Assembly (NCBI GenBank): GCA_003246755.1
Contig: QKDC01000102.1
Span: forward strand, 1 to 32,803
DNA length: 32,803 nucleotides
Direction: 5' to 3'
Source of the DNA: Gemmatimonadota bacterium
GTDB lineage: Bacteria; Gemmatimonadota; Gemmatimonadetes; Gemmatimonadales; GWC2-71-9
Part shown: positions 1-9,893 of the stretch, in pieces
Position numbering within the stretch: position 1 is the first letter of the stretch
Layout of the letters: each line of letters starts with the position of its first letter
The notes under the pieces: generated by a model
The model's input: the letters and a program-made list of their open reading frames with translations, nothing else
Told to the model about the DNA's origin: nothing
Database searches by the model: none
Position numbers and translations under genes: made by a program

Positions 1-59
1 TACCGCGACTACCGTCACCAAAATGGTGGCTGAAATCGCCTTACCTCGCCAACTTGGTG

Positions 60-82
60 GTCTCCCGAGGTCACCGGGAGAC
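60..82. repeat. perfect 8-bp hairpin upstream of first gene
   Basis: GTCTCCCG at 60-67 pairs with CGGGAGAC at 75-82 around a 7-base loop. It has no T-run on either side, so it is not a textbook terminator. It may end transcription of a gene lying before the window, or be a protein site. The rest of 1-278 shows no gene I can support, only a weaker GCAGCA/TGCTGC dyad at 172-195. Confidence 0.35.
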
Positions 83-278: not shown

Positions 279-1811
279 ATGACCGTCAACAGCACTAGCT
301 CACGTTGGCACCCCTCCTTGCCGGGCCTCCTGTTCATGCTCTGGGCCCTCGTCATCCCCATTCTCGAAGGGAATTTGATGGTCAACGCCGACGGGGATCC
401 GGCGCGTCATCTACGCCACGGCGAAACGATCCTCCAGAACGTCGATGTTATCAGAACCGACGTGTTTTCATACACTGCCACAGGTAAGCCGTTTGTAGGA
501 TTCGAATTCGGAAGCCAAATATTGTTCGCTTTTGGACATCGTTTTGGTGGGCTCGCCGGAATGGTCATTCTGGCCACGATCGCGATCGCCGGCACGATCG
601 GGCTGATCGCCCGTTGGCTACTTCGGTTGGGGGTCGACCCCCTTCTCACTTTCTTGGCCTCGATGACCGTCGCCCTGCTGACCTACATCCACTGGCTCGC
701 GAGGCCCCATGTCTTCTCGTGGCCCCTTGTGATTTTGCTCCTCGCGATGTTGGAAATGCGACCCCGACCATCCCTTTTCTGGTTCGGAACACTCTTCGTG
801 GTGTGGGTCAATTTGCACGGTGCCTTTCTTTTTGGGGCACTCCTCGTAGCTATGTATGTGGTAGGAAATGTCTTGGAGGCCCTCACCTCGAAAGACCCTG
901 AAGTCCGACGACGCGAGTGGATCCGGGCCAGGGGTCTCACCTGGATACTCCCTGTCGTCGCCCTCGCAACACTGGTCAATCCGTATGGGTGGCGGCTGCC
1001 GGCTCACCTGATTGCCTTTTTTGGTGACCCATACCTCCAGGACGTCACGAACGAGTTCCTTTCCCCTGATTTCCATTCAGCGGCGCTCAAACCGTTTCTC
1101 TTCGTGCTTCTCCTGACCATGCTCTTCCTTGCCTCTCGCCCCCGACCGCCTTGGACGCATCTCACCGTCCTTCTCGGCAACACGGCGATGGCGCTCATCT
1201 CACAGCGAAACATCATCTTCTTTGCTCTGGTGAGCGTCCCCTTGATCGCCTGTGATCTTGCACCTGTGTGGGGTCGCACAATCGGGCGCCGTTCGATCAT
1301 GCGACGCTTCGCGCGGACATCAGGATCGGGACGAACCGTCCCTTATGTGGTTGGGACGGTACTGCTCTTGGCCTTGCTGGCCTCCGGTCGCGGACAGATT
1401 GCGGGTCGCCAGCTCATCGACGAGGACTTTTCACCGCAGAGATTCCCCGTCGAGGCGGTGGCGCAGGGGAGACGTGCCGGTCTCGAGGGCCGAGTCTTTC
1501 ACGAGTTCACCTGGGGAGGGTACCTGCTCTGGGCATGGCCCGAACAGAAAGTGTTCATCGATGGGGGAACCGATTTCTATGGCCCGGACCTCCTCCGAAC
1601 CCACAGGGCGATTCTCGGCTTGACCCCTGGGTGGAGAGACTCCCTCGCCACCTACGATGTCGGTCTCGTACTCGTGAGCACCGAAGGATCGTTGGCTGCG
1701 GAACTGCTCCGTGACCCGACGTGGGAGACCTGGCATCGGGACAGCACGGCCGTGCTCCTCAGGCGTCGTCAGAATGGCGTGGCTGGACAGGATCCCGCCG
1801 GGCGCCGGTAA
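279..1811 (+). CDS. multi-pass membrane protein, GT-C glycosyltransferase-like
   Basis: About 510 residues with roughly ten hydrophobic segments and a soluble C-terminal part of about 130 residues. The first loop after the first membrane segment carries acidic and aromatic residues (DGDPARHLRHGE, then DVFSYTATGKPF). This resembles the catalytic first loop of GT-C enzymes that use polyprenyl-phosphate sugars, but I do not recognise a named family. The C-terminal part contains FTWGGYLLW and DGGTDFYG. I chose ATG 279; a TTG at 189 in the same frame would add a hydrophilic, poorly conserved-looking leader. Neither start has a clear ribosome-binding site. The end overlaps the convergent gene on the minus strand by 53 bases. 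The context of a GT2 transferase, methyltransferase and PAP2 enzyme supports a role in envelope glycan or lipid synthesis, by inference only. Confidence 0.7.
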   Translation: MTVNSTSSRWHPSLPGLLFMLWALVIPILEGNLMVNADGDPARHLRHGETILQNVDVIRTDVFSYTATGKPFVGFEFGSQILFAFGHRFGGLAGMVILATIAIAGTIGLIARWLLRLGVDPLLTFLASMTVALLTYIHWLARPHVFSWPLVILLLAMLEMRPRPSLFWFGTLFVVWVNLHGAFLFGALLVAMYVVGNVLEALTSKDPEVRRREWIRARGLTWILPVVALATLVNPYGWRLPAHLIAFFGDPYLQDVTNEFLSPDFHSAALKPFLFVLLLTMLFLASRPRPPWTHLTVLLGNTAMALISQRNIIFFALVSVPLIACDLAPVWGRTIGRRSIMRRFARTSGSGRTVPYVVGTVLLLALLASGRGQIAGRQLIDEDFSPQRFPVEAVAQGRRAGLEGRVFHEFTWGGYLLWAWPEQKVFIDGGTDFYGPDLLRTHRAILGLTPGWRDSLATYDVGLVLVSTEGSLAAELLRDPTWETWHRDSTAVLLRRRQNGVAGQDPAGRR

Positions 1812-3480
1812 CTCTCAGAGACCACACGAATCCGAGGCCCGCCCAGAATCCGGTGTAGATCCAGGCGAGGAGGGCCGTCGGCAAACGGTATCGTGGGAGA
1901 GGGTCGGACGATGGGGGAATGGCAGCGGCTGTTTGCGTTGGTGTCCCGCGCCGATAGACGTCGTAGTTGCCGACCGACCCGATGGAAGAGTAGCTCGCGA
2001 AGAACCGGGCGAACTCCGGGTCAGTCTCCAAGTAGTCGAGGTAGTCGAAGTGGCGGGCCCCTCCCCAACCGATCGCGTTCGCATCTGGTCGCAGCACGAT
2101 GACCAGTTCCGGGCTACCGTTCTGCAAGTCCTCCACAACGTCGTGTACGAACGAGCGCTCGAAAGGCCCCCGCTCCTCATAAGGCCGAGGGACAATGACC
2201 TTCGTCCAGTTCAGAGAGTCCGCATAGAGGGCAATCAGCGGCCAGAGACTCGGGAACCGGAGGGGCCACCTTGCGCCCGATTCGAGAATCAGGGGAAAGG
2301 CGGAGGCGATGTTCGAGGAAAGCACCGCCACCGTCACTCCGTCCCCCACCCCCTGAACGATCGGAACGAGTTTATGAAAGTTGGGGTCAGCATCGTGCAC
2401 CGAGGAGGAAGGCTGAAGTAACCTCCAGACCGTTCTTGGAATGGGAGTGATGATGGTGGCACAGAGTACCGCCGCCCCCAGCGCGTGGTAGATCCGATGC
2501 AGCCCGGGTAATCGCCGCGCGCCTTCGGTGATGATGAGGGCGAGGAGAAGAGAGCCGAAAACGATCGAGGGGAGGAAGTGGTAGAACCATCCCTTTCCCT
2601 GCAGGACAGCGGCCAGGTAGAAGGCCAGGGTAGCAACGGCGAGGGCATCCGTAAGAGAACTCCTCCACTGCGACACGTATCGCCTGAGGACGGCGAACAC
2701 ACCCAGGGCGATCAGCCCTGGTATTGAGCCATCACCGAACACGACGGTTTCCACGACACTTCCCGAGAGGAAGGCCTGATAGAGGCCACCGTATTCCTTC
2801 GCGTAGGCGTAGTATCCCGGTATGAGGATGGACACGAGCGTGAGGTAGAGGATTCCAACGAGGATGACACTCAGATGTTCGACCCAAGGCAACTGTCGGC
2901 CCAACCGCCAACCCTCCAGGACCAGGATTCCTGCCATCAGAAGGACAAAGTGGGGCTTGATTCCAATCGCGATGCCGCCCATGACCCCAGCGACAACGGC
3001 CACCCACGGAGCAACGGAAGCCCGAGTCAACCGTCTCGCCGCGAGCATGACATAGGGCAGAACCAGCACAGCGGTCAGATGTTCCTTCTGACCGAAATCA
3101 ACACTTGGAAGCACCAAGATCAGAAAAGCGGTGGCGAGCATCAGAGCGCCTTGGTCCCCGCCGTTGGGGCGCTCCGAAAGGAGTATTCGGTGGGTCAAGA
3201 GGAGTACCCCGACCGACATGACCACTACAGCGCCGATCCAGGCGGGCCACATCCCGACACCGAGGATCCCGGCCACCCACACAACCGCTAGCATGGGGAG
3301 GAAGATCATTGGGGGGGTCACTTCGAGGAGATCGACCCCGAGTCGGGCCCCGTGCGACATTTCCCGGGCGGCGTACAGCAACCAACTCACATCCGGACTC
3401 GGCCGAACCAATGTTTGCCCCAGGACCGCGGCAGCCACCACTACCCAAATGCCAAAACGGACACCGCGGGAAGTACTCAT
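1759..3480 (-). CDS. multi-pass membrane protein, GT-C/ArnT-like
   Basis: About 573 residues with about eleven hydrophobic segments followed by a soluble C-terminal region of roughly 150 residues and a last membrane segment near the end. The first loop after the first membrane segment has RPSPDVSWLLYAAREM and then GVDLLEVTPP, an Asp-bearing layout common in GT-C membrane glycosyltransferases. No diagnostic motif lets me name a donor or acceptor. An in-frame GTG lies directly before the chosen ATG (3483), so the start is uncertain by one codon. It sits 10 bases downstream of the GT2 gene on the same strand (7 if GTG is used), so the two are probably co-transcribed. A pairing of a polyprenyl-phosphate sugar synthase and a GT-C user is plausible. 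The 3' end overlaps the convergent gene by 53 bases. Confidence 0.72.
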   Translation of the reverse strand: MSTSRGVRFGIWVVVAAAVLGQTLVRPSPDVSWLLYAAREMSHGARLGVDLLEVTPPMIFLPMLAVVWVAGILGVGMWPAWIGAVVVMSVGVLLLTHRILLSERPNGGDQGALMLATAFLILVLPSVDFGQKEHLTAVLVLPYVMLAARRLTRASVAPWVAVVAGVMGGIAIGIKPHFVLLMAGILVLEGWRLGRQLPWVEHLSVILVGILYLTLVSILIPGYYAYAKEYGGLYQAFLSGSVVETVVFGDGSIPGLIALGVFAVLRRYVSQWRSSLTDALAVATLAFYLAAVLQGKGWFYHFLPSIVFGSLLLALIITEGARRLPGLHRIYHALGAAVLCATIITPIPRTVWRLLQPSSSVHDADPNFHKLVPIVQGVGDGVTVAVLSSNIASAFPLILESGARWPLRFPSLWPLIALYADSLNWTKVIVPRPYEERGPFERSFVHDVVEDLQNGSPELVIVLRPDANAIGWGGARHFDYLDYLETDPEFARFFASYSSIGSVGNYDVYRRGTPTQTAAAIPPSSDPLPRYRLPTALLAWIYTGFWAGLGFVWSLRVTGARRDPVQPRHSDDA

Positions 3481-3490
3481 CACCGGAACT

Positions 3491-4240
3491 TCAGGGTCGG
3501 GACCACGGAAAGTTGTCCAGGAGCACCCTCGATCTTATACGTATGAGATCTCCAAGCATCCTCAGAGAATCCGTCGCCAGATTGATTCTCGAACCGTCCT
3601 GGTGAACCCAATCGACGGGGATCTCCCTGATGGACAACCGCTCGCGTTGGGCGAGTAGTAGGATTTCTACGTCGAAGGCGAAGCCGTCGATCCGAGATCG
3701 ACCAAAGAGGTCACGGGCAACCATCCCCTCAAAGAGTTTGAAGCCACATTGCGTATCATGGATACCGGCTGTGCCGAGCAGTGCCACGAACCCACGAAAG
3801 ACCAGTCCAATGGCCTTGCGATGCCACCGGACCTGGAGGTGCACATCGTCCGCTTTGAGCGCCCGAGACCCGATCGCGATGTCGGCGCCCTCCCGGACGG
3901 CTGGTTCGAGGCGCTCCAATTCCGTGATCGGGGTGGAGTTGTCGGCGTCTGCAACGAGCACCAAACCGCCACGTGTCTGTAATACGCCGGTACGGACTGC
4001 ATGACCCTTGCCCCGATTGCGATCCAGGGAAATGGCACGAATCTCTGGGAACAGCTCACCGAATTCACCAACAACTTCGCACGTGCGATCGGTACTCCCA
4101 TCATCCACGACAATGATCTCGAAGTTCAACCCACGACGTCGCAGGTAATCAGCACTGTGGCGCAGCATCGCCGGGAGTCGTGCCTCTTCGTTGAAGGCGG
4201 GGACGACCAGCGAGAGATCGGGTTGTGTCACCGCGGCCAT
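3491..4240 (-). CDS. GT2 glycosyltransferase, dolichyl-phosphate glucosyltransferase-like
   Basis: A 249-residue GT-A fold transferase. Visible are the N-terminal strand LSLVVPAFNEEARLP, the nucleotide site VVDDGSTD (residues 44-51), the metal-binding DADNST (98-103), and the acceptor-side pattern GIHDTQCGFKLF seen in ALG5/DPM1-type enzymes that move a sugar from a nucleotide donor to a polyprenyl phosphate. There is no C-terminal membrane pair, so it is probably a peripheral inner-membrane enzyme. The ATG at 4240 gives the usual family N-terminus but has no recognisable ribosome-binding site. The divergent membrane gene starts 5 bases away. The gene leads into the GT-C-like gene at 3480. Sugar identity cannot be read from the sequence. 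Confidence 0.9.
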   Translation of the reverse strand: MAAVTQPDLSLVVPAFNEEARLPAMLRHSADYLRRRGLNFEIIVVDDGSTDRTCEVVGEFGELFPEIRAISLDRNRGKGHAVRTGVLQTRGGLVLVADADNSTPITELERLEPAVREGADIAIGSRALKADDVHLQVRWHRKAIGLVFRGFVALLGTAGIHDTQCGFKLFEGMVARDLFGRSRIDGFAFDVEILLLAQRERLSIREIPVDWVHQDGSRINLATDSLRMLGDLIRIRSRVLLDNFPWSRP

Positions 4241-4245
4241 TGGTG

Positions 4246-5874
4246 ATGCGACAGGGGCGGGCGGGACTTCTCATCACCCTGGTATTCGTCGGCCTCACAA
4301 CGATCGGGCTCTATCGCCAATTGTTGGGACCGGAGGGGTTCGACAGTCGAGATCATCTCGACTTCTATTTGCGGGTCACTCAATACCAGAAAGAGTTCCA
4401 GAACGGGCATTGGCCACAAACGCTTCCCGACGCGGTGGCCGGTGGTGGGCACGCCTTTCCTCGCTTCTACCCACCGGCTTCCCACTTCACAGCGGCAGGT
4501 ATGAGCACACTTCTGGGCGATGCCGTGCAGGGCACTCATTGGTCCGTTCTCCTCGCAACCGTGCTTTCGGTCACCCTTCAAGGAATGTTGATCTGGCGCC
4601 TCACGCATTCCCTTCTCGCCGTACTTCTCAGCGTGTTGGTCTTTGCCACCTTCCCGTATCGGTTCATTCAATTGTATCTACGCGGGGCATTCGCCGAGGC
4701 ATGGAACCTAGCCGTGCTCCCCGCATTCACCTTGGGTGCCGTCATCGCGGCGCAGGACGAACGAGCCCCAAGGTGGTGGGCCATCGTCATCGCCTTGATG
4801 ATCCTGAGCCATGCCGTCATGACCCTGTGGGTACTCCCGGCTATTCTGGGTCTCGTGGCGCTTGCCCTTCCGAGGAATTCTCGGAGGCCGTTCGTTGGCT
4901 CAGCAAGCCTCATGACGGTATGGGGTGCGGGATTGGCAGCCTTCTACCTCCTCCCGATGTGGAGGTACCTCCCCGCCGTTCGTGTTTGGGACCCCCAAGT
5001 CATGCGCGCGCTCCCGGAACACCTGGCGATGTCCTCCCCGACCCTTTACCTGGGCTTCCCCGCGTGGGCCATTCTCGGGAGTCTTGCGGGCCTCACCCTC
5101 ACCACGGGGATTGGCGCCGTCCGCTCCATCCGGCATGGCGGCTTCTTGGATAAGGTCATGTGGGGAGCGATCACGCTGGCAGTGGCTTATGTCGGTGTGA
5201 TCCTGGCCCCTGAAGTGATGTGGCGCTATCTCCCGCTCCCGCTCCGCATGATTCAGTTTCCCTTCCGTCTCCTAGGTCCGATCGTGTTCGCCAGCGCCCT
5301 GACCGTTGGGCTCCTGGTAGCGAGGCACCAGAGTCGCCGGCTGAAGGTGGGGTGGGCGGTTCTTGCCGGGCTCCTCGTCGTTTCCGGTTGGAGTTATGGA
5401 GGGGTCACCCTGGTCCCCAGAACCATCCGGGGTCAGGACCTAACGACTTTTCTTTCCGGTTCCTACCCTGATCGTGGCCTCTCTATCGCCGGGGAGTACC
5501 TTCCACGAGGCGAAGTACCGGCTGACCTGTCAGCCGCGATCCGCACCGCCCGGGAGAACGTGGGAAGCGGCGCGTTGGAATCGTGGGATGAGACCGAACA
5601 GGGGTTCCACGCCACGATCGTCACCGATCGGGCTCGTTCGGTCACCGTGCCCCTCGTGTATGACGAGTACCTCGACGTACGGGATGCAAATGGGACACCT
5701 ATCAAGGTCGCTGCGGATCGTGGCATTCTGTCGGTCCGGGCAGATTCGGGACGTACCGAAGTCCTGATCGCAAGACGGTGGCCGGTCGCTCTCAAAGTCG
5801 GGTTGCTCATTAGTTTCGGCGCCACGCTGATACTCTTTGTGCCTCGGCGACGACTGCGGGTGACGTGTACCTGA
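4246..5874 (+). CDS. large membrane protein, PTPS-related/YfhO-like
   Basis: A 542-residue protein with about ten membrane segments and a C-terminal extracytoplasmic beta-rich region (about residues 390-520) before a last membrane helix. The order of elements resembles membrane proteins annotated as 6-pyruvoyl-tetrahydropterin synthase-related, in the wider YfhO/GT-C group: a Tyr/Asp-rich first loop (GFDSRDHLDFYLR), GGGHAFPRFYPPAS, and LRGAFAEAWN. That group has no firm enzymatic assignment, and the name does not imply pterin synthesis. I chose ATG 4246 because an upstream GTG at 4225 would run into the divergent GT2 gene. No ribosome-binding site is visible. The methyltransferase gene follows 18 bases downstream on the same strand, so the two are probably co-transcribed. 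Confidence 0.75.
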   Translation: MRQGRAGLLITLVFVGLTTIGLYRQLLGPEGFDSRDHLDFYLRVTQYQKEFQNGHWPQTLPDAVAGGGHAFPRFYPPASHFTAAGMSTLLGDAVQGTHWSVLLATVLSVTLQGMLIWRLTHSLLAVLLSVLVFATFPYRFIQLYLRGAFAEAWNLAVLPAFTLGAVIAAQDERAPRWWAIVIALMILSHAVMTLWVLPAILGLVALALPRNSRRPFVGSASLMTVWGAGLAAFYLLPMWRYLPAVRVWDPQVMRALPEHLAMSSPTLYLGFPAWAILGSLAGLTLTTGIGAVRSIRHGGFLDKVMWGAITLAVAYVGVILAPEVMWRYLPLPLRMIQFPFRLLGPIVFASALTVGLLVARHQSRRLKVGWAVLAGLLVVSGWSYGGVTLVPRTIRGQDLTTFLSGSYPDRGLSIAGEYLPRGEVPADLSAAIRTARENVGSGALESWDETEQGFHATIVTDRARSVTVPLVYDEYLDVRDANGTPIKVAADRGILSVRADSGRTEVLIARRWPVALKVGLLISFGATLILFVPRRRLRVTCT

Positions 5875-5892
5875 AGAAGAACAGGAAATCCT

Positions 5893-6627
5893 GTGGAACC
5901 TGGTCTCCTGGAAGCCATACACGCGGCAGAGGAGTCACATTGGTGGTTCCGCGCTCGGCGGCGCATTTTGCTCGCGATCTTGCGAAGCCGACTGCCAGAA
6001 GCCGCCCGTCTTCTCGATGTCGGTTGCGGAACCGGATATCTCCTCGAGGCCGCTCAGGAGTACTGGGACGTTCACGGCTTGGACTTTGCCGAGGAGGCCG
6101 TCGCGTTCTGTCGGGCTCGAGGTCTGATCAGTGTCCGGCGGGCGTCGGTCGAGACATTGGCCGAACTGGAAGGCCGCTCGTTCGATTGTGTCTCCTTTTG
6201 CGATGTGATCGAACACCTAGATGACGATATCGGTGCGTTGCGGGCCGCGGACAGCCTGCTTCGACCCGCCGGCGTTGTACTCGTCACCGTTCCGGCCTAC
6301 CAATGGTTGTGGTCGCCCCGCGATGTGCTCCACCACCACCGGAGACGGTATACCAAGGCATCCCTGACGCGCGCGATCGTGGACGCCGGGCTGCAACCCG
6401 AATTCGTCACCTACTTCAATAGCTATCTCTTTCCTTTGGCCGCGGTTTCCCGGCTGGTCGATCGAGCCTTGAAGCTCAGGGGAAGCGAGCAAGTCCATCC
6501 ACCGCCTTTGCTCATCAACCGACTCTTCGAGCGCGTGTTCGGGCACGAGAGCCACCGCCTGAGTGGTGTCCCCAGACGCGGATTCATTGCTGGTCTCTCG
6601 GTCTTGGCCTTGGCTACTCGGCGGTGA
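5893..6627 (+). CDS. class I SAM-dependent methyltransferase
   Basis: A 244-residue methyltransferase. Residues 16-21 read HWWFRA, typical of bacterial envelope-associated methyltransferases. SAM motif I is LDVGCGTG (41-48), followed by the acidic strand end HGLDFAEE. The post-II region has SFCDVIEHLDDD, then PAGVVLVTVPAY, and RRRYTKASL, where His/Tyr-rich residues may face the substrate. The start is GTG 5893, preceded at good spacing by AGGAAA. The C-terminus is hydrophobic and may touch the membrane. It follows the membrane gene by 18 bases and overlaps the convergent PAP2 gene by 14 bases. A lipid- or glycan-linked substrate is inferred from context; a small-molecule substrate cannot be excluded. 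Confidence 0.9.
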   Translation: MEPGLLEAIHAAEESHWWFRARRRILLAILRSRLPEAARLLDVGCGTGYLLEAAQEYWDVHGLDFAEEAVAFCRARGLISVRRASVETLAELEGRSFDCVSFCDVIEHLDDDIGALRAADSLLRPAGVVLVTVPAYQWLWSPRDVLHHHRRRYTKASLTRAIVDAGLQPEFVTYFNSYLFPLAAVSRLVDRALKLRGSEQVHPPPLLINRLFERVFGHESHRLSGVPRRGFIAGLSVLALATRR

Positions 6628-7507
6628 TGTCGGGACCTTCTGACGTGTTGCGACGCCCCTCCCACCGTGCCACGACCGACCAACAGAGGAGGGCGACGAG
6701 GGTCGCTGCGATCACGTCCACGACGTAGTGCTCCCCGAGGTAGACCAGGGCCAGGCCCATCGCGAGGAGATAGCTCACTCCCAGCGCCTTCCACCACGAG
6801 CCGAGGGACCAGCACGCGGCCGTTATCACGGCAATCAAGGCCGCGTGGGTGGAGGGCATGGCGGCAACGTCGTTACCGCTCGTGACCTGGTATCCGAATT
6901 CGTAGAAGGTTGGACTTACTCCTTGCCAGATGTCACCCACGATCCGGTACACCCTCGGGATCTCCCCCAGTATCGAGGCCATCCACGGTGGGACAGTAGG
7001 GAACGCGTAGTGAATCGGCAGGCTCAGGAGAAGCGTAAGCGACAGTGCCTGGAGATAGATCGGGAGCACCCTAGGGCGCCATCGCCAGAGAGCGAGGCCC
7101 ACGAGGGGCGGGGCCAGGTAGTACGAGAGATGCACTCCGATCATGGCGACATCGAACCACGATCGGCTGCCGTACACATAGAAGCGTTCCTGGAGCCAGA
7201 GGGTGGGGAGTTGGCCGCGGCTGAGGACTCGGTCGACCGCAATGGGATAGTCGATGAATGCTGGGGGACCGAGGTCGTCGGCATACTGCCGCAGGGTGAC
7301 GAAGACGAGAAACGTGGTGATGTAACCGGCCCAGAGGGCAAAATCTCGGTCGGTCCGACCCCAGACCAGCGCGAGCACGACTGGTCCGCCCAGGAGCAGG
7401 GGACTCACCGGCCCCCAGAATCGGTACTGTGGCAGCAGCAGGAGCAGGAGGACGAGGAAGAGAATGACTACGCGAACCGGTCCGGCCCACCGACCTCCAC
7501 AAGACAC
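6614..7507 (-). CDS. PAP2-family enzyme, inositolphosphotransferase (AUR1)-like
   Basis: A 297-residue integral membrane enzyme with about six or seven helices. It shows FPTVPPWM (169-176), AMPSTHAA with catalytic His221, and LGEHYVVDV with His260 and Asp264. The FPxxPPW box plus these two His motifs, and the absence of the classic KxxxxxxRP motif, fit the PAP2_3 branch that contains yeast AUR1 and bacterial inositolphosphotransferases. Such enzymes transfer a phospho-head group between lipids, with catalysis usually on the extracytoplasmic face. The GTG start at 7507 has an AGGAGAAGAAGAG purine tract before it. It lies 28 bases after the ABC permease on the same strand and is probably in that operon. 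A lipid phosphatase function is the main alternative. Confidence 0.85.
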   Translation of the reverse strand: MSCGGRWAGPVRVVILFLVLLLLLLPQYRFWGPVSPLLLGGPVVLALVWGRTDRDFALWAGYITTFLVFVTLRQYADDLGPPAFIDYPIAVDRVLSRGQLPTLWLQERFYVYGSRSWFDVAMIGVHLSYYLAPPLVGLALWRWRPRVLPIYLQALSLTLLLSLPIHYAFPTVPPWMASILGEIPRVYRIVGDIWQGVSPTFYEFGYQVTSGNDVAAMPSTHAALIAVITAACWSLGSWWKALGVSYLLAMGLALVYLGEHYVVDVIAATLVALLCWSVVARWEGRRNTSEGPDITAE

Positions 7508-7535: not shown

Positions 7536-8846
7536 TCATCCCGCTCGAATCCACCGGAAGATCTCGCGCACCGTGGCGCGCTTCCCGTACATCAGAATCC
7601 CCACCCGATAGATCCGCCCCGCGACCCAGGCCATCGCTAACACTCCCAGCGCGGTCACCACAACGGAAAGCACCAGTTCCGGGAGTGGGAGAGGACTCAA
7701 CGAGTAGCGGGCCGGCGTCACGAACGGGGCGAGTGGTGGGACCAGGCTCAGGACGTGCGCCAGCTGCCCATTGGGTTCGCCCAACAACTTGAACATCACG
7801 AACAGACCCGAGACGACCACCAGCGTCACGGGAAGGCTCGCCATCTGGGTCTCCTGGACGGTATTGCACGTGGAGCCCACCGCAGCATACGCCGCCGAGA
7901 AGAAGAAGAACCCGAGTACGAAGAACACGAGAAAGACGATGAGAAGTCCGAGCGAGATATCGGGGATCGGGAGGGCCGCAGCCGCTTCGGGGCTGATGCC
8001 CGCCAGACCGGCAATCCCACCTCGGGCCTGTGTCAGGCCGTAGGCGGCTCCGGCCCATATGCTCAACTGGAGCAACGCGACCGACCCGACGCCTAATACT
8101 TTGCCCAACATCAACTCAAAGGGCCGAAGACTGGAGACCAGAACCTCATTGATCCGGTTGGTCTTCTCCTCCACGGTGCTGGTCATGACCTGAACACCGT
8201 AGATGAGCAGTGCCATGTACAGGACGAAAGACATGATATAGGCGAGGGCAAACGAGGCCGCTCCGCTCTGCCCGGTAAGCGTTCCCTGGCTCACTTTCGT
8301 CGTGGCCAGTCTGATCGGTTTGACGGTCTGCATCAGCACGGCGGGGCTGATTCCCGCTTGGGTCAGTCTCTCCGTGAGCACGGCTTCGCGGACGCTGCGG
8401 GTGAGCACGTCCATCTCGGAAGGGCTCCCAACGTTCGCCCCGAGATAGTGGAGGGTGTCGGTGGCGAGCACGTCCTCGGTCACGAGGAGGATTCCATCGA
8501 CTCCCGCCTCCCCCAGTTCGCGCCGGTCGACCAAAGCCACGAGTGAATCCCGTACCTGCTCGAGCCGCCCGACAGCTTCCACGCGAGAGGCGACGTACCG
8601 ATGCTCACCGTCAGGCTTCCCGCCTCGCGTCGCGCGTGTGAGTGCCGCTTCGATCTTCTCTCCCAATCCCCCCTCAGCGGCGTCAATCACCACGATTCGT
8701 TTGGCGCGAGTGTTGCCCTGCAACAGGATCGGGGCGACCAAGAGAATGGCGAGCAGCGCAGGACCGAAGACCGTGGCAACGATGAACCCCTTGGTCCGGA
8801 CTCGGGAGACGAACTCGCGCTTGGCGACGACCCAGGCCTTACGCAT
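7536..8846 (-). CDS. ABC-2 type transporter permease, NatB-like
   Basis: A 436-residue permease. The first membrane helix (about 20-42) is followed by a large extracytoplasmic domain to about residue 190. Five or six helices then fill the rest, the layout of NatB/YhaP-type ABC-2 permeases. The N-terminus MRKAWVVAKREFVSRVRTKG is typical of the family. I chose ATG 8846, whose codon overlaps the stop of the ATPase gene (ATGCGTAA, 8 bases) and has AGGGAG at good spacing. An upstream in-frame start at 8969 would lie inside the ATPase. It forms an exporter with the ATPase. Substrates for the family include sodium, drugs and peptides; the sequence does not tell which. Confidence 0.93.
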   Translation of the reverse strand: MRKAWVVAKREFVSRVRTKGFIVATVFGPALLAILLVAPILLQGNTRAKRIVVIDAAEGGLGEKIEAALTRATRGGKPDGEHRYVASRVEAVGRLEQVRDSLVALVDRRELGEAGVDGILLVTEDVLATDTLHYLGANVGSPSEMDVLTRSVREAVLTERLTQAGISPAVLMQTVKPIRLATTKVSQGTLTGQSGAASFALAYIMSFVLYMALLIYGVQVMTSTVEEKTNRINEVLVSSLRPFELMLGKVLGVGSVALLQLSIWAGAAYGLTQARGGIAGLAGISPEAAAALPIPDISLGLLIVFLVFFVLGFFFFSAAYAAVGSTCNTVQETQMASLPVTLVVVSGLFVMFKLLGEPNGQLAHVLSLVPPLAPFVTPARYSLSPLPLPELVLSVVVTALGVLAMAWVAGRIYRVGILMYGKRATVREIFRWIRAG

Positions 8847-9810
8847 GGCGGGCACTCCCTGGTTGGTCGGTAATGGCTGCCGCGGTGGCCGCATCGCGAC
8901 CCACCTTGGCGATGAAGATCGATTGCAGGGAGGGTTCCACGATCTCGAAGCGGGAGAGGCCTGCGCCACTGGCTACCAGCGTCTCCAGTAGCCGATCCGG
9001 GTCGGCGTCAGGGGCGAGTTCGACTTCGGCACTGGCTCCCTCGTCATCCGCCCACGCGACGAGCGAACGATCTCTGAGGACCGGTGCCGCCCGTGCTGCA
9101 TCCCGGTGGAAGGCAAGGGCAATGTGGCGACCGCCAGCCTCCCGCTTCACCTCGGCCATTGTCCCATCCACGACCTTCTCTCCCCGGCTGATGATCACCA
9201 CCCGGTCGCACATCTTCTCCGCCTGCTCCATGATGTGGGTCGAGAAGAGTACCGTCTTCCCGGTCCGCGCCAGGTCGATGACGGTTTCCTTGAGGACCTG
9301 GCTGTTGACGGGGTCGAGCCCGCTGAAGGGCTCGTCGAGGATCACGAGTTCAGGGTCGTGGAGGATCGTCCCTGCAAATTGGACCTTCTGTTGCATCCCC
9401 TTTGAGAGGTCCTCGATCTTCTTGTCGGTCCAGTCCTCGAGTCCCAAACGCGCGAGCCACTCTCCAGCCTTGGCTCGGGCTCGTGAGGCTGACACGCCTT
9501 TCGTCTCACCAAAGAAGACCAGGTGGTCCACCACCTTCATCTTCTTGTAGAGGCCTCGTTCCTCTGGCAGGTATCCAATCCTGTGGGACAGGTCTCGGCC
9601 ACCCACGCTACCACCAAAGAGCGAGATCCTCCCTTCGTCCGGAACCAGAATATCCATCATCATCCGAATCGCGGTGCTCTTGCCGGCTCCATTGGGCCCG
9701 AGCAGACCGAAGATGGTTCCCGCGGGAACGTCGAGTGAGAGATCACGCACGGCGGTGTGCCCCGCAAAGCGCTTCGTGACATGCTCCAGGTGAATCACTG
9801 GACCGGACAT
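8839..9810 (-). CDS. ABC transporter ATP-binding protein, NatA-like
   Basis: A 323-residue ATPase. The Walker A motif is GPNGAGKST (38-46), the Q-loop region is GYLPEERGLYKKM, the signature is LSKGMQQK, Walker B is LVILDEP followed by FSGLD, and the switch His lies in LFSTHIMEQ. The last 90 residues form the extra C-terminal domain (DUF4162-type) common in NatA-like proteins. GYLPEERGLY is characteristic of this branch. I chose ATG 9810, which has GGAGAG upstream; the frame stays open to 9870, but that leader overlaps the terminator-side DNA and lacks a better site. It is the first gene of a probable three-gene unit with the permease and the PAP2 enzyme. Confidence 0.94.
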   Translation of the reverse strand: MSGPVIHLEHVTKRFAGHTAVRDLSLDVPAGTIFGLLGPNGAGKSTAIRMMMDILVPDEGRISLFGGSVGGRDLSHRIGYLPEERGLYKKMKVVDHLVFFGETKGVSASRARAKAGEWLARLGLEDWTDKKIEDLSKGMQQKVQFAGTILHDPELVILDEPFSGLDPVNSQVLKETVIDLARTGKTVLFSTHIMEQAEKMCDRVVIISRGEKVVDGTMAEVKREAGGRHIALAFHRDAARAAPVLRDRSLVAWADDEGASAEVELAPDADPDRLLETLVASGAGLSRFEIVEPSLQSIFIAKVGRDAATAAAITDQPGSARHA

Positions 9811-9867
9811 CGGCTTCTCTCCAAGACAGGGTGTCATGGATCCCACGAACAATCCCTCAAAGTAACG

Positions 9868-9893
9868 CAAAGGCCCGGCATTTCTGCCGGGCC
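9868..9893 (-). terminator. terminator of the SUF operon
   Basis: A perfect 9-bp stem, GGCCCGGCA / TGCCGGGCC at 9872-9893. Read on the minus strand it has a GAAA tetraloop and is followed by TTTGCGTTACTTT. It lies 33 bases past the stop of the last SUF-operon gene and upstream of the ABC ATPase on the same strand, so it separates the two transcription units. Confidence 0.85.

Follow-up and report, generated by a model that had tools for sequence, protein, structure and literature searches.

Pilin-linked glycosylation is already known, and the genes for the transferases TfpO and TfpW lie beside pilA. PMC11841053 describes these as the pilin-associated glycosyltransferases of Pseudomonas aeruginosa type IV pili and TfpW as an arabinosyltransferase of the GT-C type. 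According to PMC6182317, Aggregatibacter Flp1 is both glycosylated and phosphorylcholine-bearing, and PMC12307814 names RcpC as a protein implicated in the glycosylation of Flp. Searches of the literature on Tad/Flp pilus glycosylation, with most subscription papers outside their reach, showed no report of a dedicated glycosyltransferase gene kept beside flp. Here we describe a cluster of six open reading frames (ORFs) at positions 279–7507 of the window, by which we mean bases 1–32,803 of contig C59 in a Gemmatimonadota genome (G000) of 3.15 Mb and 190 contigs. On balance, we favor the view that this cluster supplies the glycan genes of an island for a Tad/Flp pilus, decorating the Flp pilin or a nearby surface glycan. 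What appears to be new is the connection of such decoration to Tad pili, and the presence of a partner with the AUR1 fold.

One line of evidence comes from GTC1 (279–1811, plus strand), a multi-transmembrane protein whose sole sequence resemblance to the GT-C type is a conserved DGD motif in a loop. Of 61 genomes, 7 carry GTC1; across the order the figure is 25 of 288, with 28 places counted at E values of at most 1e-20. At 13 of the 27 places outside the window, flp is divergent from GTC1, with 143–1302 bp between the starts, and these places represent 6 genera and two families. The 14 places at which the distance to flp was measured were picked after Tad/Flp hits, and the fair count is 13 of 27, not 13 of 14. 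Of the 28 places, sixteen showed Tad genes within the sequence read around them, one is the window itself, three showed no Tad gene in the flank read, and eight are cut by a near contig end (G090 twice, G123, G004 C47, G093, G247, G195 and G190 C85). Three Tad-bearing places, in G052, G258 and G177, lack an adjoining flp. The genomic linkage to Tad and flp genes is conserved in these relatives, as is the arrangement of GTC1 and flp. On two stretches, L212 (G182:C76) and L213 (G190:C61), Tad gene sets lie on opposite sides of GTC1.

The distribution of the genes across genomes is consistent with this linkage. TadB was found in 12 of the 61 genomes, including 6 of the 7 that bear GTC1 versus 6 of the 54 others (p = 1e-4), and GTC2, the second gene of the cluster, was likewise associated with TadB (5 of 7, p = 0.002). 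These Fisher values count the window's own genome and ignore shared ancestry. As a control, the AUR1 type of contig C105, described below, showed no such association (p = 0.82), and Tad queries matched only 2 of 34 control stretches, totaling 542 kb, with one gene each. The seventh GTC1-bearing genome, G041, holds GTC1 fragments only (L186, G041:C23:26941-27519), and TadB was not found in it; among its congeners, G276, G280 and G283 have GTC1 beside flp, and G039 has neither. The clustering itself extends beyond chance: the window's family includes 11 further stretches with GTC1, and on 8 of them GT2, GTC2 or the methyltransferase (MT) of the window has a relative, the remaining three being those of G097, G091 and G093.

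In the window's own genome, the locus extends past the left end of the window. On the right, the cluster is bounded by an ABC-2 permease gene, ABCm (7536–8969, minus strand; true start probably near 8846), which is chromosomal and marks the island boundary. When the ABC pair was read in 31 other genomes, mnmG and/or parA, recognized by sequence, were among the three genes that follow ABCm in 16, and the other 15 had other genes or a contig end there; in the window, the GT-C cluster takes this place. The mnmG-parA pair of this genome is on contig C130, and on its other side come a coiled small protein, an AAA ATPase, DUF192, TadC, TadB, CpaF, CpaE, TadG, CpaC, CpaB, TadE, CpaA and flp, followed by the contig end; Flp_Fap, RcpC, Secretin, Peptidase_A24, T2SSE and T2SSF all scored above the Pfam cut-offs in this Tad locus. 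The Tad genes of G008 likewise end beside mnmG-parA, and those of G003 lie near parA. At the end of C130, flp is followed by the start of an inverted second copy (98% over 259 bp; L187, G000:C130, 3283–3993) that is broken by the contig end. The first bases of the window (1–78, unstranded) resemble the spacer between these inverted copies, with positions 2–78 matching it at 92% over 77 bp on the reverse strand; no further copy was found in the eight stretches of this genome that were compared, which make up a small part of it. The inverted flp repeat explains the assembly break, and puts the left edge of the window at the flp array.

The six ORFs lie in the strand order + - - + + -, with small overlaps at three junctions, and the alternating strands indicate that they are not one operon. 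Read from ABCm, the order is AUR1-like, MT, YfhO-like, GT2, GTC2, GTC1 and the contig end. Genome G123 has the order ABCm, GT2, GTC2, GTC2, MT, GTC1 and contig end at the same site, without the AUR1-like and YfhO-like genes. GT2 (3491–4240, minus strand; 249 aa) is a glycosyltransferase of the polyprenyl-phosphate-hexose synthase type, with a Pfam GT2 match of 8.8e-26 and matches to PDB chains of dolichol-phosphate-mannose synthase (DPMS; 1e-18) and the ArnC type (4.1e-15). MT (5893–6627, plus strand) is an S-adenosylmethionine-dependent methyltransferase that matches Methyltransf_23 (3.9e-18) and carries the SHWWF stretch. The fourth gene (4225–5874, plus strand) encodes a YfhO/PTPS_related-like membrane protein that reached 23.9 bits, below the Pfam cut-off of 26.4. 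GTC2 (1759–3483, minus strand) is multi-transmembrane and weakly PMT/GT-C-like; its profile matched a set of PMT_2-containing proteins by hhalign at a probability of 47% (E 1.9e-4, 356 columns), which is a weak match. Neither GTC1 nor GTC2 gave anything credible in Pfam, NCBIfam, PHROGs or PDB-sequence searches; Pfam scans gave no credible match in 20 members of the GTC1 family and no match in 9 members of GTC2, and comparison of the GTC1 profile with GTC2 and with the PMT_2-containing proteins yielded nothing. The putative GT-C fold of GTC1 rests on its topology and on the DGD motif conserved in the first loop, which suits a GT-C enzyme.

Gene starts are approximate throughout. Genes were taken from a codon-usage caller combined with tblastn, as these GC-rich genomes give shadow frames. 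The caller overlooked the window's methyltransferase and several AUR1-like genes, and where its calls were doubtful, on L067, L070 and L137, tblastn positions were used instead.

The AUR1-like protein (6614–7507, minus strand) matches Pfam PAP2_3 at 3.5e-21. Residues H221, H260 and D264, belonging to the PSxH and HxxxD motifs, were invariant in 40 sequences; we take these to be the catalytic residues of the PAP2_3/AUR1 type. A model built from the 40-row alignment, with a predicted local distance difference test score (pLDDT) of 86.7, has the AUR1 fold with the catalytic triad intact, and was closest among solved structures (9ivc and 9vj4, both at Z of about 20) to Aur1-Kei1 (Z 20.1) and an inositol phosphorylceramide (IPC) synthase (Z 20.0), followed by LpxE (16.4). 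The protein is therefore probably a phosphotransferase, or else a phosphatase, whose active site is intact. The original prediction for this DNA had proposed a lipid or glycan head-group pathway encoded by two GT-C-like proteins, a polyprenyl-phosphate GT2 transferase, a YfhO/PTPS-related protein, an HWWF methyltransferase and an AUR1-like phosphotransferase. All six ORFs were recovered, clustered at about the positions it gave, and its enzyme classes were largely right; the GT2 and HWWF methyltransferase assignments held, as did the AUR1 resemblance, which the predicted fold bears out, but PTPS_related stayed below its cut-off and the GT-C labels found no family match.

The original prediction had also named an inositol- or sphingolipid-type membrane lipid as an example of what might receive the head group, and called for a search of the genome for serine palmitoyltransferase (SPT) and inositol-phosphate synthase. 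Genes of both types are present, myo-inositol-phosphate synthase (MIPS) being encoded on contig C137, but the SPT-like gene lies on another contig, C105. Its product has SPT as the best NCBIfam match at 515 bits, below the cut-off of 640. After this gene come an epimerase-type reductase and then another PAP2_3 gene of the AUR1 type (L027, G000:C105, 4309–8470). This stretch is probably a sphingolipid locus of the genome, and an inositol-sphingolipid route with its own locus is plausible for this organism. Relatives of the C105-type AUR1 occur in 40 of the 61 genomes, own included, and the reductase adjoins them in 29 of the 30 loci read. The window-type protein is distributed differently, with matches in 5 of the 61 genomes, of which just two, its own genome and G058, gave strong ones. 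In a 77-row tree, from which every second wider row was left out and in which the label of L092 looks wrong, it groups with window-type proteins of other phyla and is split from the C105 type at 98/99, placing it by sequence on a branch separate from the sphingolipid AUR1. Its nearest neighbor in the tree is a Chloroflexota protein, L059, a placement of which we are moderately sure given the support of 97/60 (the Shimodaira–Hasegawa-like approximate likelihood ratio test being only 60). Against the curated model for phosphoinositol dihydroceramide synthase it scored 19.3 bits, under the cut-off of 480, and no SPT was found in any of the 80 wider loci of window-type AUR1 relatives. The presence of MIPS and SPT-like genes in the genome, together with the closeness of the model to IPC synthase and Aur1-Kei1 at Z of about 20, speaks for the idea that the AUR1-like protein and its neighbors build an inositol- or sphingolipid-type head group. 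We nevertheless regard this idea as very improbable, given the separate locus on C105 with its widespread AUR1 type, the other branch of the window protein and the lack of SPT around its wider relatives. On these observations we rejected the window cluster as the sphingolipid locus, and with the cluster tied to a Tad locus the head-group part of the prediction is left unsupported; the same tie supports its alternative, a glycan pathway. An AUR1-fold protein in a bacterial genome therefore needs its branch and neighbors checked before it is read as evidence of sphingolipids.

PAP2_3 proteins also occur in Tad loci outside the window. A profile search across 30 Tad/GTC1 locus sets, totaling about 667 kb, found PAP2_3 in five of them: G000 and G058, which were seeds of the profile, and, independently, G003 (two proteins), G008 and G091. 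Pfam confirmed PAP2_3 in all four independent proteins, and the control stretches gave none (0 of 34). The best score among the 80 wider AUR1-like loci belonged to Chloroflexota L059, in which a PMT_2 glycosyltransferase, the AUR1-like gene, flp, two TadE genes, CpaB, CpaE, CpaF, TadB and TadC follow one another on one strand, with 0.25 kb between the AUR1-like gene and flp downstream of it. In L059 the GT-C protein is a weak match to GTC2 (29% over 140, blastp, 1e-4). We also considered whether the AUR1-like gene accompanies these GT-C genes everywhere, and rejected this, as relatives of GTC1, GTC2, YfhO, MT, ABCm or SPT were found by tblastn (1e-5) in 0 of the 80 wider loci; by the same search a GT2 relative was present in 6. 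In a GTC1/Tad neighborhood without a PAP2_3 hit, G013:C64 (L020), two tandem membrane proteins (2344–3900 and 4038–5540) match Sulfatase at 3.4e-10 and 3e-4, the latter below the cut-off. It is possible that this pair are alternative phosphate-group transferases.

Enzymes of the DPMS/ArnC type produce polyprenyl-phosphate sugars, which serve GT-C enzymes as donors on the outer side of the cytoplasmic membrane. We infer each enzymatic step, the sugar and the acceptor of the window's pathway on this pattern. GT2 would make a polyprenyl-phosphate hexose at the cytoplasmic face, and GTC2 and other GT-C-like proteins would act at the outer face, where they build or transfer the sugar. GTC1, whose gene stands divergent to flp, may move the sugar or glycan to the Flp pilin, which we consider the most likely acceptor of the decoration module, or to a surface glycan working with the pilus. 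The methyltransferase could cap the sugar, and the AUR1-fold protein may add or remove a phosphate-linked group, or recycle the carrier. A more specific version, that a dedicated system modifies Flp or its glycan, with GTC1 as a previously unclassified GT-C-type enzyme attaching a methylated sugar and the AUR1-fold enzyme a phosphate head group derived from a lipid, in this lineage and in at least one of the Chloroflexota, is speculative and in our estimation unlikely. If true, it would represent an AUR1-type enzyme that works on a pilus, not on ceramide.

Several observations weigh against assigning the cluster to the Tad/Flp pilus. PAP2_3 is missing from 25 of the 30 Tad/GTC1 locus sets, and window-type AUR1 relatives have TadB and CpaF within 10 kb in only 4 of the 80 wider loci. 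No Tad gene was found at the GTC1 places of G143, G164 and G207, where the flank read measured 2.0–2.7 kb on the side on which flp would lie and about 9 kb in the opposite direction; in G052 the Tad genes are some 10 kb from GTC1, and in G258 and G177 TadC was the sole match among the Tad queries. Six of the 12 TadB-bearing genomes lack GTC1, among them G011 and G014 with only fragmentary Tad contigs, indicating that GTC1 is not needed for Tad pili, and GTC2 is present as well in two genomes in which no TadB was detected, G031 and G038. The YfhO-like gene has relatives in 0 of the 60 other genomes, and ABCm, which was not found in G003, G004, G008 and G013, is not a fixed neighbor. The GT-C assignment of GTC1 is burdened by the lack of detectable homology to any GT-C family, and by a single-sequence model that was unusable (pLDDT 44.7). 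The contigs C59 and C130 are joined by our reading of the repeat, not by the assembly. Finally, genes that keep their position need not belong to one pathway, and the relatives do not count as independent cases.

An alternative is that the product of the cluster is a glycan or glycolipid of the cell surface, such as an adhesin, a capsule or a holdfast-like material, whose genes merely occupy one adhesion island with those of the Tad pilus, Flp itself being unmodified. The accessory genes differ between genomes, including PMT_2 proteins, sulfatase-fold proteins and other multi-transmembrane proteins, and the absence of GTC1 from half of the TadB-bearing genomes fits as well; we consider this explanation possible, though less probable than decoration of the pilus, because flp and GTC1 are always divergent at the 13 places, in two families, while the other neighbors change. 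It is also conceivable, though doubtful in our view, that insertions of all kinds collect in a hotspot next to the ABC pair and mnmG, where glycan and Tad genes were caught independently. The pair, consisting of ABCm and its partner ATPase, lies near Tad or GT-C genes in G000, G058, G123, G187 and G177, and a transposase-like gene adjoins the AUR1-like gene of G058, as a hotspot would suggest. However, GTC1 and flp are paired without ABCm on the stretch read in G276, G280, G283, G003, G004 and G013, which speaks against a hotspot. Decoration of the Flp pilin, or of a glycan near it, accordingly remains the explanation that we favor.

The ATPase of the ABC pair (8839–9870, minus strand) is part of the flank and lies outside the module. 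The recurrence of the pair (7536–9870 in the window), which spans two families, may have a simple explanation, in that it just marks a stable site. The transposase-like genes directly beside the AUR1-like gene of G058 (L025, G058:C1, 7967–9078) were judged by eye, with no family search.

The catalytic domain of the window's GT2 is similar to those of dolichol-phosphate-mannose synthase and the ArnC type, whose chains are longer; at 249 aa it is without their C-terminal membrane part. With AUR1 and IPC synthase the AUR1-like protein has in common the predicted fold and the PSxH and HxxxD residues; it differs in falling far under the curated score, in standing apart from the SPT-linked branch and in lying among Tad and GT-C genes. 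A bacterial sphingolipid locus has SPT beside an AUR1-type gene, and the window cluster does not. The Aggregatibacter Flp is, according to the accessible part of PMC6182317, a Tad pilin with a sugar and a phosphate-linked group, as proposed here, and that part of the source names no dedicated transferase for the modification. Its glycosylation and phosphorylcholine make a sugar-plus-phosphate decoration plausible in the present case. TfpO and TfpW, as described, resemble the proposed role of GTC1 in that a membrane glycosyltransferase is tied to the major pilin. A putative transferase gene beside the pilin gene, as in TfpW-like systems, was seen in the relatives, and in the window's genome by contig-end evidence only. 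Unlike in those systems, the pilus is of the Tad/Flp type, GTC1 is divergent from the pilin gene, and the neighbors add a GT2 enzyme, a methyltransferase and an AUR1-fold protein. The GTC1 protein family, which has no credible Pfam match and whose genes recur divergent to flp across two bacterial families, is a concrete candidate for deletion and expression studies.

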